From Verrucomicrobia bacterium IMCC26134 (GTDB lineage: Bacteria > Verrucomicrobiota > Verrucomicrobiia > Opitutales > Opitutaceae), in assembly GCA_000972765.1 (NCBI GenBank), contig CP011265.1:806001-870000 (forward strand): a stretch of 64,000 nt of DNA. The letters are read 5' to 3'. A model generated the notes under the pieces. That model ran no database searches. It was not told the origin of the DNA and worked only from the letters and a program-made list of their open reading frames with translations. Within the stretch, counting starts at the first letter, position 1. Every line of letters begins with the position of its first letter. Of this stretch, positions 1,396-54,958 are shown piece by piece. Position numbers and translations under genes: made by a program.

Positions 1396-1497
1396 GCTTT
1401 TGGCGGCGTGTTTTTTTAAATAAATTATTCATGGTTCTACCATCGCCATCCCCCAGTTTGGAATTTTCCACGGCGTCCACCCCATCCCTCAACTCCC

Positions 1498-4400
1498 ATG
1501 TCACGTGTAAACTTGGTTTGCAGCTTTACGGTCGCGCCCTTACGCGCTTTTTTTGTCACCCTCTGCATCTCATGGAGCGCCGCTTTATCTGTATCTCAGG
1601 CGGCTACATTGCTCACTTGGAATATCACCGGCACGACTGGAGCTTCTAGCGGAGTTGTTGCCTCGGCCCCCGCCTTGGGCGCGAGCGGATCAGACCTGAC
1701 GGTAGGCGGCGCTACCGGAAACAGCACCTCTCCGAGTAATACATGGAACCGCTCTTTCGCGCTCTCTGCTGACGTCGGCGCCGCGCAGACAGCCGGAAAC
1801 TACTTCTCTTGGACGACGACTGCAGCCGCAGGCTACACGATCACTTTCAATGGTCTCTCGGGCCTGAATCTATCTCGCACTACTACTGGTCCTGCCTCCG
1901 CTGAACTCTGGTATAGCACAGACGGCACGACTTTTAACAAAACCGGAAACACCTTTACGGTTGGCACCACGCTCGCTTCGGCGGCCTCGGCTCTAGCCGC
2001 GACGATCACCACGACTCCGATCGTCATTGTAGGTGGTGTCTCCAGTCCCACGGTCGGCTACTGGCGTCTGGTGGTATACGGGGGGGCAGGAACCAGTCGC
2101 ATGGGTATCGGCAATGCTGACGCAACCAACGATTTTTCCATGCTCGGCACGATTTCAGGCGGTGCAGCCCGTGATCTGGTTTGGAGTGGCGGTGGTAATG
2201 GCTCCTGGAACACCACCGCTGGCAACACCCCCTGGACCTTCTCGTCCAGCGCCACCAGCTTTGTCAGCAATGACAATGTCACGATCGGATCCGCTGCATC
2301 CATCGCGGTGGATTCGGGTGGCATATCTGTGGGTTCGCTGGCAGTTTCGAATTCGTCAGGCACCGTAACGCTTTCAGGAGGTTCTCTCACGGGCACGACC
2401 TTAACAAAAATAGGCGCCGGAACGCTCTCGCTCCAAGTTGCCAACGTTTTTGCCGGAGGTGTCTCCGCCACGGGCGGCACTCTCGTTGCAGGCAATTCCA
2501 CTGCTTTTGGTTCCCTTGCGGTCTTGCTGGATACCGCCACACTTCAAATCACAGATCCTGCTGTAACAACACTGTCCAATACGCTAGCCGTCGCCAATGG
2601 CGACGCGATCGTCAACACAGGCGGAAATGTCACTCTAACGATTAGCGGCGCTATTTCCACCACCGGCACCACCGGCGGGGTAGGCGTGATTAAGGGTGAT
2701 GCGCAGACCTTCAATACCCTCACCAAAACGGGGCCGGGTAAACTCACCCTGACTGCCAACTTGGGAACACAGATGACCTACAGCACGGGAAATGGCACAT
2801 CGGGTGTTACGACGACGGGTGGCATCGCCCTTCAGATCGCTGGAGGATCGATGGAAATCACCAATGGCAGAACGTGGAATTTGGCCTCCGGTGTGTTACT
2901 CGATACGTTTGATTCCCTAGGCAATCAAACGGCCTCCTACAACGGCATGGTATGGGATGGCGACGTCCTGATGCGCGGCGGCACCATTCAGGTCAACGGC
3001 GGCAATATTCGCGGCAATGGCACCATCACCATCGGTGTGCTTGGCGAAAGTCCCGTCACCAATACGATCGGTCAGCGCCTTAATTTCAACAGCCCCGATA
3101 TTACCAACAGTGTAGTCATCACATCAGGCCATACGCTGACTCTGAGCGCAGCCGCAGGAGGTGCGATCGGACTCTTAGGTAACATTTCTGGCAACGGCAC
3201 GATCACCAACACTGGCACTGGAACGTCCAATATTATGCCGGCCTCGGCTTCCGCCTTTACTGGCAACTTTGTGGTGGTTGGTAAAATGGGCGTAAACGCT
3301 CAAGCACTTGCCGCCGCAGCGGGTGTGAACACGGGCTCTCTCTCAACCAATGTGCTTACGCTGGATAACAAGTCATCCACGAGCGGAGCGGTGGTCAGTG
3401 CTCCAATCAATGGCCTGGGATACATAGTAAAAACCAGCGACGGTGATGTGGCCCTCACTGGTAACAACACTTTCAACGGCGGCCTCACATTAAACTCTGC
3501 CGGTGGTATATTGGTGGATTCCGTAACTGGGCTCGGCACCGGCACGATCACCTCCTCCAATGCCGGGGCAAAAGTCGGTATCTCCACTGCAGGCGCCTCT
3601 CCGCTTACGATTCCCAATACTCTCATCACCGGCACAGCCGACCTGCTGACCTCCTATTACCCTGTTCTCGCGTTCGTCCCCGGCGTCGGGAAAACCATCG
3701 TGCTTACCGGCCCGATCTCCGGCTCCGGCCAGCTCAAGGTTTCAGGTGGCGGCGACCTCGATCTCACCGGCCAGACTTCAAATACCAACACAGGTGGAAT
3801 CGAGATCGGCACAGGTCGTATTCTCGCTTCGGGCGATGCCAATTTGGGCACCGGCACGATCAACTTCGGCACCATTGCCAACAGTCACCTAGTGTCTTCC
3901 GGTGTAGCAGGAAGCGCAACATTCAGTAACGCTGTCACGATCGGCGCCACAAGCACCGCCGGCTACACCGCCAACTTCGACACAAACGGTAGCACCGTTA
4001 CTCTCACCGGTTCCATCTCCGACAAAGCAGGCAACGTGGTCGGTGGCGCACTCACCAAACTCGGCGCGGGCGAGCTCATCCTCTCGGGCAACCTCAGCTA
4101 CAGCGGTAACACCACTGTCAGCGCCGGCACCTTGACGTTGAATAGCGCGAACGCTGCCAATGAGGCCTCTGCGGTCAGCATCGCATCCGCCGCATTCCTG
4201 AAACTGAACTTTTCCGGCACATATACGGTCGCGGCTCTTTTTATCAACGGCGTCCAGAAAAGCGCGGGAACCTATACCTCGGCCAATTCCTCCGGCGCAA
4301 TTATCGGCACCGGCTCGCTCACCGTCACGACTGGCCCGGTAGTGACTGACGCCACGCCCCCTGTCATCACCCTCACCGGAAGCGCCTCGGTAGCGGTAAA

Positions 4401-50372: not shown

Positions 50373-51497
50373 ATGTCCTTTTCGGATATCTATCGCGGCA
50401 AACGTGTCCTTATTACGGGGCACACTGGTTTCAAGGGGGCCTGGCTTGCCGAATGGCTGATCCAGCTCGGAGCCGAAGTCACCGGCTTCGCGCTGCCGCC
50501 TCCGACTGAACCGTCTTTGTATAACCAGCTCGGACTCGGCTCCCGTCTCAGTCATGTCGAGGGCGATGTCCGCGACCTCGCCGCCGTCCTCGCCGTGGTC
50601 TCCAAGGCGGGTCCGGATTTTATTTTCCATCTGGCGGCGCAACCTCTGGTGCGCCTGTCCTACGAGCAACCGGTGGAGACCTACGCGACTAACATCATGG
50701 GCACGGTCAACGTGCTCGAGGCGGTCCGCCTCGCCGCTCGTCCTTGCTTCGTCGTCATCGTCACGACCGACAAGTGTTACGAGAATCGCGAATGGGCCCA
50801 TGGATACCGCGAGGAAGACGCGATGGGCGGTTACGATCCTTACAGTTCCTCCAAGGGTGCGGCGGAGCTCGTGGTGTCCGCCTACCGGCGCTCCTATTTT
50901 TCGGGTCCCGACACCGCGATCCGTGTGGCCACGGCCCGTGCCGGCAACGTGATCGGTGGCGGAGACTGGGCGCTCGATCGCATCGTGCCGGATTGCATTC
51001 GCGCGCTAGTAGCCGGTGATGCCATTCCGGTGCGCAACAAGGTTGCGACCCGTCCTTGGCAGCATGTGCTGGAACCTCTCTCCGGCTACCTCTGGCTCGG
51101 CGCGTGCCTGGCTACGCCGACGCTTTCTCCGTTCCACTCCAAGCTGGCCTCGGCTTTCAATTTCGGTCCGGCCCTCGCTTCCAATCGAACCGTCGCCGAG
51201 CTCGTTCAAGAGATCCTCAAAAATTGGCCCGGTGAATGGGTGGATAAAAGCGATCCGGCCGCCGTCCACGAGGCCAGGCTCCTTAACCTCGCCACCGACA
51301 AAGCCCATCACTTGCTCGGTTGGGCCCCCGTCTGGCCCTTTGCCGAAACCGTCAGCCGCACCATCGGTTGGTATCGCGAAGCACACACGGCGTCCTCCGT
51401 TGCCGGTATTCACGCATTCAGCAGCTCCCAGATTGCCGCCTACACCTCCGCCGCGCGTGCCGCCGGTATCGCTTGGGCAATCGAAGGCAAAAGCTGA
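50373..51497 (+). CDS. rfbG: CDP-glucose 4,6-dehydratase
   Basis: 374 residues from ATG 50373 (MSFSDIYRGKRVLITGHTGF); an ATG at 50346 inside rfbF would add nine atypical residues. Extended SDR with Rossmann motif GHTGFKGAWLAEWL, TTDKCYENREW, the Y-x3-K site in YDPYSSSKGAAELV, and GGGDWALDRIVPD. It converts CDP-glucose to CDP-4-keto-6-deoxyglucose. The last codons (GGC AAA AGC TGA) fall inside an AT-rich repeat copy, so its C-terminus may be repeat-derived. Confidence 0.96.
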   Translation: MSFSDIYRGKRVLITGHTGFKGAWLAEWLIQLGAEVTGFALPPPTEPSLYNQLGLGSRLSHVEGDVRDLAAVLAVVSKAGPDFIFHLAAQPLVRLSYEQPVETYATNIMGTVNVLEAVRLAARPCFVVIVTTDKCYENREWAHGYREEDAMGGYDPYSSSKGAAELVVSAYRRSYFSGPDTAIRVATARAGNVIGGGDWALDRIVPDCIRALVAGDAIPVRNKVATRPWQHVLEPLSGYLWLGACLATPTLSPFHSKLASAFNFGPALASNRTVAELVQEILKNWPGEWVDKSDPAAVHEARLLNLATDKAHHLLGWAPVWPFAETVSRTIGWYREAHTASSVAGIHAFSSSQIAAYTSAARAAGIAWAIEGKS

Positions 51498-51523
51498 AAC
51501 GCGGAAAATCTAAAATTTGAAAT
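51484..51523. repeat. AT-rich repeat copy A, spanning the rfbG stop
   Basis: GGCAAAAGCTGAAACGCGGA then AAATCTAAAATTTGAAAT. It shares AAAAGCTGAAA and GGAAAA/TTTGAAA words with the copies in and around rfbH. The rfbG stop TGA lies inside it, and the next gene starts right at its end. Confidence 0.65.
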
Positions 51524-51892
51524 ATGAGCCGACTCTCTGAAGAACTTCGCCAGCGCTGCAAAGCTTATGCCTCCGGGACAATTAGGCTTTACGTCTCCCT
51601 TCCGAAAGAACGTGAAGAAGTGCATATTTTAGGGAAACAGTTGCTTCGCGCCGGAACCTCCGTGGCGGCGCATTCCCGGGAAGCGTCCAGCGCTCGGTCC
51701 GATGCGGAATTCGTCTCTAAACTCGAAGTTTTGCTTCAAGAAGCTGACGAGGCTGCCTTGTGGATGGAACTGCTCCGTGAAGATTGCGGGATTCTGCTGC
51801 CGGCCCTGCCAATACTTCTGGAAGAAACAGGTGCCCTTCTCGGCATCTTCACCACCATTGTCGCCAAAGTAAAACGCAGCGACCGTCCCTAA
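51524..51892 (+). CDS. Four-helix bundle protein (23S rRNA IVS-encoded type)
   Basis: 122 residues. Helical throughout, with the family core LGKQLLRAGTSVAAHSREAS, then SDAEFVSKLEVLLQEADEAA and WMELLRED. These proteins were first noted in intervening sequences of 23S rRNA and are common as orphan genes in environmental bacteria; biochemical function is unknown. Its placement between rfbG and rfbH interrupts the usual rfbFGH order, and it is flanked on both sides by AT-rich repeat copies. Confidence 0.88.
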   Translation: MSRLSEELRQRCKAYASGTIRLYVSLPKEREEVHILGKQLLRAGTSVAAHSREASSARSDAEFVSKLEVLLQEADEAALWMELLREDCGILLPALPILLEETGALLGIFTTIVAKVKRSDRP

Positions 51893-51894
51893 TC

Positions 51895-51993
51895 AGACTT
51901 TTCCGCTTTTCAGTTTTTCCAAATTTCAGATTCTCCGCCCCCCTTTCCGCCTTAGTTTCCGCTTTTCCAAATTTCCGCTTTCCCAATTTTCAG
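51895..51993. repeat. AT-rich repeat copy B, between IVS-type gene and rfbH
   Basis: Plus strand is C/T-rich (CTTTTCCGCTTTTCAGTTTT, CTTTTCCAAATTTCCGCTTT), i.e. mainly the opposite orientation to copy A. It runs up to the rfbH ATG and contains no evident ribosome-binding site. Confidence 0.65.
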
Positions 51994-53748
51994 ATGTCTT
52001 CCCCCGCCGAGCTCAAAGCCGAGATTCTCCGTCTCACCCGCGAATACTCCTCCCTCATGCACACCGGCCAGCGTCCGGGTGACGATGCCGCTCACGCGCC
52101 TTGGCAACCCGGCCAGACCATCCCCTACGCCGGACGCGTTTTTAATCAGGACGAGGTGGAGGCCGCAGTCAGCTCCACGCTCGACTTCTGGCTAACGCTC
52201 GGTCCCGAGGGCGATGCATTCGAACGCGAACTCGCCGCACTTCTCGGCGTCAAACACAGCCTTCTCGTCAACTCTGGTTCCTCCGCCAACCTCGTCGCGC
52301 TCACCGCCCTGACCACGCACAAGTTGCCCGCGCACAAACGCCTCCAGCCTGGCGACGAGGTCATCACCGTCGCCGCCGGTTTTCCGACCACGGTCACGCC
52401 GATTATCCAAAACGGTCTCGTCCCTGTCTTCATCGACAACGACCCCGTGACCGGCAACCTCCGCCCCGGGCAACTCGAGTCTGCCTTCGTCTCTGGCAAG
52501 ACCAAGGCGGTGATGATCGCCCACGCCCTCGGCAACCCCTTCGACCTCGGTGCCGTCCTCGAGTTCTGCCGGGCCCACGACCTCTGGCTCATCGAGGATA
52601 ACTGCGACGCGCTCGGCTGCACTTACTCCATGCCCGAATCACGGGCGCGGGCCTTGGGTTTGGATCACCTCCTTAAAATAGCTGAACTCGGCGCGCACCC
52701 GCTCATTCGGTTCGAAGAAGCAATCGAACCGGATGGAAATTTGGAAAAGCGAAAATTTGAAAATCTGAAATCGGAACCTTCCGAATTTCCAAATTCCAGC
52801 GTTTCAGCTTTTTCCGGTGAGCGTCTGCTCACTGCACCCACCGGCACCTGGGGAGATATTTCCACCCAGTCCTTTTATCCACCGCATCATCTCACCATGG
52901 GCGAGGGTGGGGCGGTCAACATCGTCAGCCGCCCGCCGCTCAAAACTTACGCCGAGAGTTTCCGCGACTGGGGCCGGGACTGCTGGTGCGCCTCCGGCAA
53001 GGACGACACCTGCGGCAAACGTTTCGGCTGGCAGCTCGGCGAGCTCCCCAAGGGCTACGATCACAAATACATTTACAGCCACCTCGGCTACAACCTGAAG
53101 CCCCTTGATCCGCAGGCCGCCATCGGTCGCCAGCAACTTAAAAAACTCCCCGCCTTCATCGAGGCCCGTAAACAAAACTGGGAGGCTCTGCGCACCGGTC
53201 TTGCCGACCTGGAAGATCTCCTCGAGTTCACGCTGCCCACGCATGCCGTTCGCTGGATACCGCCCAGCGAACGGCAAAAAGTGGAAAAGCAGTCCGAAAA
53301 TTTGGAAAACGAAAAAGCAAAAAAGCTGAAATCGGAAATTTCCGAATTTCCAAATTCCAAATTTTCCGACGTTGTTTCCGATTTTTTCAACTGGGATTCG
53401 AGCGGTTGCCGCGTAAATCCCAGTTGGTTCGGTTTCATGCTCCGCGTCAAACCCACCGCTGGCTTCAGCCACACCGACCTCGCCCGACACCTGGACGAGA
53501 AGAAAATCGGCAACCGCATGTTTTTCGGCGGCAATCTCCTTCGCCAGCCCGTCTTCGTTCAGCTTAAGAAAGACCGCCCCGACTCGTTCCGTGTCGTGGG
53601 TGAGATGACCGGCGCCGACCAGATCATGAACAGCGCGATCTTCCTCGGCACCTACCCCGGTCTTACGCCCGAGATGCTCCGATATGAGATCCAGGTCATC
53701 CGCGACTTCTGCCGGAAAAGCGGAAAAGCTGAAATTTTGAAAAGCTGA
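51994..53748 (+). CDS. rfbH: CDP-4-keto-6-deoxyglucose-3-dehydrase (RfbH) with two large in-frame insertions
   Basis: 584 residues from ATG 51994 against about 437 for the family. PLP-fold motifs: SGSSANLVALTALT, DEVITVAAGFPTTV, EDNCDALG. SFYPPHHLTMGEGG has His at 298-299 where aminotransferases have the PLP-lysine, as in E1/RfbH. Iron-sulfur ligands C204, C330, C332 and C340 keep the C-x-C-x7-C part, but the first spacing is 125 rather than 57. Insertion 1 is about residues 212-282, and insertion 2 about 420-475, just before NPSWFGF. Both contain translated AT-rich repeat. The TGA also lies in a repeat (AAAAGCTGA). All core motifs outside the inserts are intact, so the enzyme may still work. 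With an E3-type reductase it would yield CDP-4-keto-3,6-dideoxyglucose. Confidence 0.93.
   Translation: MSSPAELKAEILRLTREYSSLMHTGQRPGDDAAHAPWQPGQTIPYAGRVFNQDEVEAAVSSTLDFWLTLGPEGDAFERELAALLGVKHSLLVNSGSSANLVALTALTTHKLPAHKRLQPGDEVITVAAGFPTTVTPIIQNGLVPVFIDNDPVTGNLRPGQLESAFVSGKTKAVMIAHALGNPFDLGAVLEFCRAHDLWLIEDNCDALGCTYSMPESRARALGLDHLLKIAELGAHPLIRFEEAIEPDGNLEKRKFENLKSEPSEFPNSSVSAFSGERLLTAPTGTWGDISTQSFYPPHHLTMGEGGAVNIVSRPPLKTYAESFRDWGRDCWCASGKDDTCGKRFGWQLGELPKGYDHKYIYSHLGYNLKPLDPQAAIGRQQLKKLPAFIEARKQNWEALRTGLADLEDLLEFTLPTHAVRWIPPSERQKVEKQSENLENEKAKKLKSEISEFPNSKFSDVVSDFFNWDSSGCRVNPSWFGFMLRVKPTAGFSHTDLARHLDEKKIGNRMFFGGNLLRQPVFVQLKKDRPDSFRVVGEMTGADQIMNSAIFLGTYPGLTPEMLRYEIQVIRDFCRKSGKAEILKS
52735..52815. 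repeat. AT-rich repeat copy C, in frame inside rfbH
   Basis: Within insertion 1. Core 52765-52798 starts CTGAAATCGGAACCTTCCGA and continues ATTTCCAAATTCCA. It is partly self-complementary (AAATCGGAA-CC-TTCCGAATTT) and is translated as ENLKSEPSEFPNSSVSAFS. Confidence 0.8.
53281..53390. repeat. AT-rich repeat copy D, in frame inside rfbH
   Basis: Within insertion 2. Core 53326-53359 starts CTGAAATCGGAAATTTCCGA and matches copy C at 32 of 34 positions. It is translated in the same reading phase (LKSEISEFPNSKFS), so both copies present the same peptide LKSExSEFPNS. Confidence 0.85.
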
Positions 53749-53893
53749 AATCAGACCTTTCCGTATTTCCCAATTTCCACGTATCCGCTTTCTCCGCCTT
53801 CCGTCCTTTCAACTTTTTCTAGTTTCTAAATTTCAGATTTTTCAGCGCTCCTTTCCGCCTTTCAGCATTTCCAATTTTTCGCTTTTTCCGCCT
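53716..53893. repeat. AT-rich repeat copies E/F, rfbH stop to next gene
   Basis: GGAAAAGCTGAAATTTTGAA, then AAAGCTGAAATCAGACCTTT and CCGTATTTCCCAATTTCCAC repeat the core of copies C and D with several differences. The section after 53780 is C/T-rich in inverse orientation. The rfbH TGA (53746-53748) lies within it, and the next gene starts at its end. Confidence 0.7.
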
Positions 53894-54958
53894 GTGCCCC
53901 TCCCGCCCCTTCTGCCCGCAGACCTCGTCCATGTGCTGGCGCACACCCGCGAGCTTTGGGCGGAGGCGCGCGGCCAGTCCTTCTTCATTACCGGCGGCAC
54001 CGGGTTTTTTGGCATGTGGCTTTTGGAGAGCTTCGCCCACGCCAACGACACCCTCGGTCTCGGCGCACGTGCAACTGTTCTTACCCGCGACCCTGCCGCC
54101 TTCGCGCGCAAAGCTCCGCACCTCGCCAGCCGCGCCGACCTCACCTTTATCCAAGGCGACGTGCGGACCTTTGCGTTCCCCGTCGGGCAATTCTCCTACA
54201 TCATCCACGCCGCCACGGAGGCCAGCGCAAAACTGAACGACGAAGCTCCGCAGGAGATGCTCGACGCCATCATAGGCGGGACCCGCCGCGTGCTGGATTT
54301 CGCAGCGCAATGCGGCGTTAAAAAACTTCTGCTTACCAGCTCCGGTGCCGTTTACGGAAAACAGCCGCCCGAGCTCACGCACATTCCCGAGGATTACCTT
54401 GGTGCGCCCGATCCGCTCCTGCCCGGCTCGGCCTACGGCGAGGGCAAACGCGTCTCCGAGCACCTCTGCGCCGTTCACGCCCTGCAGCACGGCTACGAGG
54501 TGAAAATCGCCCGCTGCTTCGCGTTCGTCGGCCCGCATCTGCCGCTGGATGCGCATTTCGCTATCGGTAACTTTATCCGCGACGCCCTCGCCGGCGGCCC
54601 GATCCAGATCAACGGCGACGGCACGCCCCTCCGCAGCTACCTCTACGCCGCCGATCTCGCCGTCTGGCTCTGGACAATCCTCTTCCGCGCCCCAAGCGCC
54701 CGCGCCTATAATGTCGGGTCGGACTCCGGTTTGTCTATCCGCGAAGTCGCGGAGTCGGTCCGCACGTCCGTTGGGGGTAGTATAGATGTGCAACTTGCCC
54801 GCTCCCCTTTGACTGGCATTGCGATCACGCGCTACGTCCCAGCCGTCGACCGAGCCGACCGGGAACTGAATCTTGCCGTTGCCATCCCCCTGCCTGACGC
54901 CCTGCAGCGCACAACCGCTTGGCTTCGGTCTGAATATCTGGCTCTGCATTCACCGTGA
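53894..54958 (+). CDS. NAD-dependent nucleotide-sugar epimerase/reductase (extended SDR)
   Basis: 354 residues from GTG 53894. Rossmann motif FITGGTGFFGMWLLESF, then LLTSSGAVYGKQPPE and the Y-x3-K site SAYGEGKRVSEHL. INGDGTPLRSYLYAADLAVW and YNVGSDSGLSIREVAE are typical of sugar epimerases and 4-ketoreductases. It follows rfbH, where pathways place a CDP-abequose or CDP-paratose synthase, but a second SDR follows at once and either could be the 4-ketoreductase. Its stop overlaps the next start (GTGA). Confidence 0.85.
   Translation: MPLPPLLPADLVHVLAHTRELWAEARGQSFFITGGTGFFGMWLLESFAHANDTLGLGARATVLTRDPAAFARKAPHLASRADLTFIQGDVRTFAFPVGQFSYIIHAATEASAKLNDEAPQEMLDAIIGGTRRVLDFAAQCGVKKLLLTSSGAVYGKQPPELTHIPEDYLGAPDPLLPGSAYGEGKRVSEHLCAVHALQHGYEVKIARCFAFVGPHLPLDAHFAIGNFIRDALAGGPIQINGDGTPLRSYLYAADLAVWLWTILFRAPSARAYNVGSDSGLSIREVAESVRTSVGGSIDVQLARSPLTGIAITRYVPAVDRADRELNLAVAIPLPDALQRTTAWLRSEYLALHSP

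Follow-up and report, generated by a model that had tools for sequence, protein, structure and literature searches.

Palindromic DNA that is read in frame inside protein genes is known from the Rickettsia palindromic elements, ORF-less inverted-repeat copies near a gene-bearing element characterize the MITEs and REPINs, and tandem heptamer repeat arrays are found in cyanobacteria as STRR. Regarding the intervening sequences (IVS) of 23S rRNA, excerpts of one report describe that of Coxiella as a 428-nt hairpin which holds the S23p gene in its loop and is excised by RNase III, with tandem heptamers before the S23p start whose number varies between strains (PMC4990558). Excerpts of a second report present the TAACTGA repeats as tandem 7-mers, mostly intergenic with some inside ORFs, that are direct repeats of a single word lying mostly before start codons (PMC4679880). 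In addition, according to the portions of two further sources, 23S_rRNA_IVP genes were reported in cas loci, among CRISPR-Cas-associated functions (PMC3936711), and ORFs of the family in 16S and 23S rRNA insertions of CPR bacteria (PMC11270868). The locus presented here shares with the 23S rRNA IVS of Coxiella and Leptospira a gene of the S23p family enclosed by complementary ends, in the loop of a putative hairpin, but differs from them in that it lies between protein genes and, gene-less, inside coding sequence, and in that its arms are arrays of locus-specific words. Compared to the tandem 7-mers of the TAACTGA repeats, the element of the window reads as 8-mers and its family most often has a period of 7; the words S23 and four helix are absent from that report (PMC4679880). 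As for the sources on cas loci and CPR bacteria, their excerpts show members of this protein family among the genes of an operon or within rRNA and leave word arms unmentioned (PMC3936711, PMC11270868). None of the literature matches listed, which come mostly from outside subscription journals and consist of partial texts, links PF05635/TIGR02436 genes to inverted word arms. Family genes in cas loci and in rRNA are already known, and so are heptamer arrays, the latter without such a link.

The window, meaning the whole 64,000-bp stretch of DNA analysed, corresponds to positions 806001-870000 of a genome that consists of a single 4.001-Mb contig; unless stated otherwise, coordinates are those of the window and the features of the locus lie on its + strand. 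The host of the inserts, rfbH (51994-53748, ATG at 51994), encodes a protein of 584 aa belonging to the CDP-4-keto-6-deoxyglucose 3-dehydrase family, with RfbH as the top NCBIfam match (617.6 bits for a cut-off of 423), compared to 437 aa for the solved E1 homologue 3bcx. A sequence-only reading of the window had set these 584 residues against an expected length of about 437, which the solved homologue bears out. It had also pointed to two cores, at 52765-52798 and 53326-53359, as matching at 32 of 34 bases, partly self-complementary, in the same phase and translated as LKSExSEFPNS, and all of these observations were reproduced: the cores lie at ATG offsets of 771 and 1332, both multiples of 3, they encode LKSEPSEFPNS and LKSEISEFPNS, respectively, and the centres of the inserts hold TCGGAA/TTCCGA inverted repeats.

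In both inserts, purine-rich 8-mers (GGAAATTT GGAAAAGC and so on) form a run that is followed by its approximate reverse complement. Insert 1 (52735-52817) thus comprises a left array, the centre AAATCGGAACCTTCCG, and a right array, and insert 2 (53278-53386) is built in the same manner around the centre AAATCGGAAATTTCCG. Compared to shuffled sequence, folding is clearly better for insert 2 (z -4.5) and weakly so for insert 1 (z -1.9). The coding frame is stop-free in both, stops being present in the two remaining frames of insert 1 and in one of the two remaining frames of insert 2. The C-terminus of rfbH provides a third in-frame piece: its final 11 residues (RKSGKAEILKS) and the stop codon (53746-53748, which falls in a word) are encoded by the left array of a third hairpin with AATCAGACCTTTCCG as its centre (53712-53800); over 53705-53800, this hairpin beats shuffles in folding (z -3.4). 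Like inserts 1 and 2, it is an inverted repeat without an ORF of its own. A further pyrimidine-rich array with word chains then fills the gap before the next gene (53800-53893), and the pyrimidine-rich stretch 53775-53900, folded alone against shuffles, gave no fold (z +0.5). Both gaps flanking rfbH (51890-51993 and 53749-53893) are occupied by related arrays, as had been proposed from the sequence. Besides, 3bcx has three residues (between residues 201 and 205 of the chain) where rfbH has residues 213-282, including insert 1, which supports the view that insert 1, at least, would sit in a loop. This placement is based on the 3bcx alignment since the AlphaFold model of rfbH obtained from a 9-row alignment is too poor to be used (mean pLDDT 48.7).

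Upstream of rfbH, an element located between rfbG and rfbH (51490-51993), and not in a 23S rRNA helix, carries a PF05635 ORF that the rfbH inserts lack. Its left word arm, AAAGCTGAAACGCGGAAAATCTAAAATTTGAAAT (51490-51523), includes the rfbG stop codon (51495-51497), which likewise falls in a word. The gene itself (51524-51892) belongs to the four-helix-bundle family of 23S rRNA intervening-sequence proteins (55.5 bits with TIGR02436 and 41.5 bits with PF05635), and is the sole match to this family at E<=0.001 in the 4.0-Mb genome. The right arm, which extends from the stop codon of the gene to the rfbH start (51890-51993), is made of pyrimidine-rich 8-mers with word chains. The arms of this locus (L055) reach an inverted match score of 31, a value equalled or exceeded by 2 of 48 permuted pairs. 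As in the case of MITEs and REPINs, ORF-less hairpins are found here near a gene-bearing element, and the centre AATCAGACCTTTCCG of the hairpin at 53.7 kb resembles the stop junction of the four-helix-bundle gene, TAATCAGACTTTTCCG, at 51890. This likeness is a hint of an internal deletion rather than a proof since the window contains five occurrences of AATCAGAC, distributed over both strands. Unlike MITEs and REPINs, the element is devoid of a known transposase, the PF05635 gene not being known as one.

The reading that we favor, with a probability of about 0.6, is that the inserts in rfbH derive, as local copies devoid of the ORF, from an IVS-like hairpin element, and would be tolerated in protein loops. 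A full copy separates rfbG from rfbH, and arrays of the same words without the ORF are found in the gap beyond rfbH, at its 3' end and, in frame, at two places inside it. The four-helix-bundle protein would recognise its own word in the stem, the arrays would grow by slippage, and template switching between the arms would maintain their complementarity. From the full copy, empty ones may then reach sites within a few kb, and among those that land in genes the survivors would be the copies placed in a surface loop and in a stop-free phase. Such an element would act in the way of the Coxiella and Leptospira rRNA intervening sequences, i.e. as a hairpin parasite that leaves the host molecule working, although it would do so in operons of protein genes and within coding sequence. 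What counts against this proposal, in which the movement of the element is putative, is that the boundaries of the arrays are too degenerate to be defined precisely.

The sequence-only reading had rather explained the inserts by a mobile palindrome of the Rickettsia type, inserted in frame and tolerated in loops. The in-frame palindromic insertion stands, as does, from 3bcx, the loop in the case of insert 1, whereas the genome-wide dispersal does not: in the whole 4.0-Mb genome, a core pattern of 33 bases, two of them free, matches twice at up to 3 mismatches and is absent beyond these two places. A third, looser relative was seen at 53739-53764 on the + strand (G000:C1:859745-859770), and outside the locus the intergenic hairpin sequence gave only short and weak matches, the best one being of 31 bases with an E value of 5.3e-5. 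A fixed mobile sequence present in many genes and gaps would account for the in-frame palindromic inserts and for the related arrays in the gaps, but a core pattern occurring only twice, hairpin matches of this weakness, and inserts made of other residues and words at the same sites in congeners largely refute it and render it very unlikely. The locus therefore resembles the Rickettsia palindromic elements in its in-frame palindromic inserts in protein genes, and departs from them in having no fixed dispersed sequence, in lying beside a specific gene and in being made of word arrays.

What is encountered elsewhere in the genome is a looser family of words. The word pattern AAATTTGGAAAAGCTGAAA has 16 matches at up to 3 mismatches (backwards control: 0), eight of them at 51.9-53.9 kb of the window and the other eight outside the locus; in the congener G005, the same pattern gives 21 matches (control: 1), eight of which are on the rfbH contig. 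A 450-kb sample contains 19 chains made of three or more [TG]GAAA words spaced 7-9 bp apart, nine of them within 51.5-53.9 kb of the window, compared to a mean of 0.2 in five simulated sets, which is more than expected by chance; of the 20 stretches that compose the sample, 4 were picked around BLAST hits. These exact-word chains replaced a laxer array detector, for which the simulated 64-kb maxima went up to 49.7. The recurring unit is an inverted pair of 7/8-mer word arrays, associated with the neighbouring PF05635 gene, and not a fixed sequence. Counting against the element reading, the arrays found elsewhere in this genome stand without another PF05635 gene, and several of them are single, without an inverted partner. 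Another cluster of GGAAA-type arrays, partly inverted and apparently located in intergenic gaps, was observed in the same genome at positions 6509-7403 of L082.

Relatives of rfbH were searched in 57 genomes, 8 of which yielded a strong match, and nine sequences were aligned. In G000, the genome of the window, and in G005, a gene of the window type lies directly upstream of rfbH and GGAAA-type inserts are present at both sites, those of G005 being long. In G006, the last residues of a window-type gene are seen at the end of a contig, and rfbH bears an insert at site 2. In G002, a partial gene of another subfamily, with 17% local identity to the window protein, is located upstream of rfbG, a CAACAAC array stands between the two, and CAACAAC-type inserts are found at two of the three rfbH sites. 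In G000, G005 and G006, as well as at these two G002 sites, the inserts and the nearest family gene thus have their word in common. The third G002 insert is made of a GTTGAAAGG-like word, unlike that of the upstream gene, which counts against the element reading. The same holds for L032 (G003:C31), where a CAACAA-type insert occupies site 2 with no family match listed on the contig, and for the folding of insert 1 and of the G005 and G002 inserts, which is modest over shuffles (z -1.7 to -1.9). The CAACAA pattern was not used as a measure of significance, given that several genomes also score high in the backwards control (in G002, 7 matches for 6 in the control). In L038 (G003:C1), with a gap of 36 bp between rfbG and rfbH and no family gene in it, rfbH has no insert; none is seen either in the rfbH of L035 (G011), where apparent toxin-antitoxin genes lie between rfbG and rfbH.

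It had been considered beforehand that distant orthologs might share the insert residues as ordinary protein sequence. The rfbH alignment speaks otherwise: the outgroups L036 and L037 have no inserts, and the inserts of the congeners at the same positions are made of other words and encode other residues. The place of the inserts is thus conserved and their word is not, since the same rfbH positions carry other words in congeners. These data also bear on the idea of ordinary low-complexity protein linkers under peptide selection, with which the stop-free state of the inserts and the position of insert 1, which aligns with a short loop of the solved homologue, would agree. The presence of the same words in non-coding gaps and around the upstream gene, along with unrelated peptides at the same place in congeners, nevertheless refutes this idea in the main and makes it scarcely credible. 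As separate observations, the first residues of rfbG in G002 (L031, reverse strand), MTTNNQQPTTGNPQ, are encoded by a CAACAAC word array, and the rfbH frame of L032 (991-3198) and L035 (reverse strand, 1483-3345) is continuous with an upstream toxin-like gene, which replaces the first rfbH residues and which we take to be PemK/MazF-like.

The arms of the PF05635 family were assessed by matching the 200 bp that precede each family gene against the 200 bp that follow it, taken as the reverse complement. In the phylum set, composed of 30 loci and 80 more chosen among the matches listed, the 110 loci have a mean score of 33.9 with their own arms compared to 17.2 with permuted ones, a level reached by none of 10,000 permutations. 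Among these same loci, 77 lie above the 95% point and 61 above the 99% point of the permuted pairs, and the inverted match exceeds the direct one in 92, the opposite being true in 16. The named set, with titles of Verrucomicrobia, Lentisphaerae, Kiritimatiellae and others, contains 71 of the 79 scan loci, the remainder having been dropped for a flank under 120 bp. Its mean is 40.3 compared to 27.0 for permuted pairs (again 0/10,000 permutations), and 355 shifted placements average 17.8; only 14 named loci pass the 95% point of the permuted pairs because the named loci share words. The congener set goes from at least 35 matches to 30 taken as loci and 25 used, L056, L069 and L071 being dropped for a flank under 100 bp, and L067 and L073 as weak hits in long frames.

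After deduplication, 136 of 203 loci have an arm score of at least 30, namely 19 of the 25 in the congener set, 56 of the 68 in the named set and 61 of the 110 in the phylum set, this last set being drawn from the matches listed; the 67 loci under this cut-off count against the element reading. As controls, 2 of 123 neighbouring ORFs reach 30 in L094-L202, compared to 78 of the 101 family genes there, and PemK genes of the phylum sample never do so (0 of 20). The score of 30 is also reached by 9 of 10 loci of cyanobacterial plasmids (10 of 18 records used), 7 of the 10 being above the 95% point of the permuted pairs, and by 22 of 28 loci on virus-labelled contigs, for which the corresponding figure is 23 of 28. 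These 28 were kept out of 35, with L286, L287, L291, L294, L309, L311 and L313 omitted as apparent duplicates and with L290 and L292, 82% alike, both retained. L094, L168 and L170 duplicate L059, L053 and L068; they are absent from the deduplicated 203 and present in the analyses of 152 loci mentioned below. G004:C2 and JAIYBI010000190.1 are both of 14063 bases and have a locus in common. Further away from the gene, extra copies were above threshold in 15 of 196 regions compared to 4 of 583 permuted ones, 4 of the 15 rows representing one locus under two names, and the spread seems to be local since these extra copies further out are few, a rarity that also counts against the element reading.

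The main rival explanation would do without any moving element: short words and small hairpins, arisen by chance in gaps and loops, would have grown through replication slippage and through template switching from one arm of a quasi-palindrome to the other, the PF05635 gene being a bystander. In line with this, the arrays consist of degenerate tandem words, orthologous loci differ in array length (as do L044 and L045 in their right arms), arrays are found without a PF05635 gene, and template switching between the arms would account for the kept complementarity. Slippage by itself is however hard to reconcile with arms of at least 30 in two thirds of the PF05635 loci and so rarely around neighbouring ORFs or PemK genes, as well as with the repetition of the word of one locus at separate sites and with the change of word at the same site between species. 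Although this explanation appears unlikely as a substitute for the hairpin element, slippage with template switching may be the way in which the arrays grow in either case.

Of the 152 loci whose arm score is 28 or higher, 100 have a best period of 7 and 46 one of 8 (146 with either), the element of the window reading as 8-mers. The words vary by locus, with TAGGCTT, AGTTGAG, GGAGAAC, GACCAATG, AGCTNGTA and many others, and their similarity follows protein identity, with a Mantel r of 0.64 over the 152 loci (0/2000), of 0.64 after deduplication (0/1000) and of 0.28 without the named loci L094-L172 (0/2000). Arm likeness is at background below about 40% protein identity, and word sharing rises from 50% on. 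The word is common to both arms of a locus, differs between loci and covaries with protein similarity. This covariation would fit word recognition by the four-helix-bundle protein without proving it, since joint inheritance explains part of it, and the support that it lends to recognition is weak because the words change quickly outside the window-type subfamily. Within that subfamily, CTGAAA-like words are kept across Verrucomicrobia, Lentisphaerae and Kiritimatiellae records, and the left arm is of the GAAA type in 59 and of the TTTC type in 2 of 62 loci; the other subfamily clusters show a faster change of word.

Host genes other than rfbH were also found. In-frame arrays are present directly downstream of the family gene in the Wzt-type ABC ATPases (O-antigen) of two Kiritimatiellae, L142 and L157, with Wzt_C above the cut-off in L157 and just below it in L142, and, likewise directly downstream, in the group-1 glycosyltransferase of L059. 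Over nine in-gene arrays, whose boundaries were set by hand and which were considered without control sequences, the coding frame is stop-free in all cases and a stop is present in 17 of the 18 other frames. In-gene arrays thus look like survivors, given that such arrays are not open by nature. In two of the ten cyanobacterial plasmid loci (L318 and L327), the family gene lies between cas6 and cas4 with inverted word arms, and in a Nostoc plasmid (L319), it is bordered by nrdB and nrdA, the genes of ribonucleotide reductase beta and alpha, is oriented against them and has word arms of GGGAGTA.

These settings are also of relevance to a regulatory interpretation, in which the protein would bind its word in the operon mRNA, in the gaps and in rfbH, and would thereby tune polysaccharide synthesis. 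The arms closely border the family genes at their start and stop, word and protein covary, and rfbH, the Wzt-type ATPases and the glycosyltransferase as hosts suit surface-polysaccharide loci. Nevertheless, the cas6/cas4 and nrdB/nrdA settings on cyanobacterial plasmids fit insertion better than a single regulon, and two congener rfbH loci do without a family gene, which makes such regulation highly doubtful.

The hairpin-element reading can be extended, tentatively, to the whole family. In this possible extension, PF05635 genes would define a large and unrecognised class of bacterial mobile hairpin elements, each with its own 7/8-nt word in two inverted arms read by its own protein; the rRNA IVS would be copies that landed in rRNA, and ORF-less copies would invade neighbouring genes in frame, adding a peptide to the enzyme. 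Apart from this extension, the word arms give a shared genomic signature to the protein family known from rRNA intervening sequences, the presence of the family in cas and other operons may reflect insertion rather than a role in the pathway, and rfbH would represent a case of non-coding hairpins becoming protein sequence.

Two more candidate hosts were judged weak and left uncounted, namely the ATPase of L125, whose words differ from the arms of the upstream gene, and the carbamoyltransferase of L136, with a right arm alone. Finally, the glycosyltransferase of L059 contains, at positions 2433-2600 of this locus, a heptamer-encoded tandem repeat of the seven residues KPETGDL.
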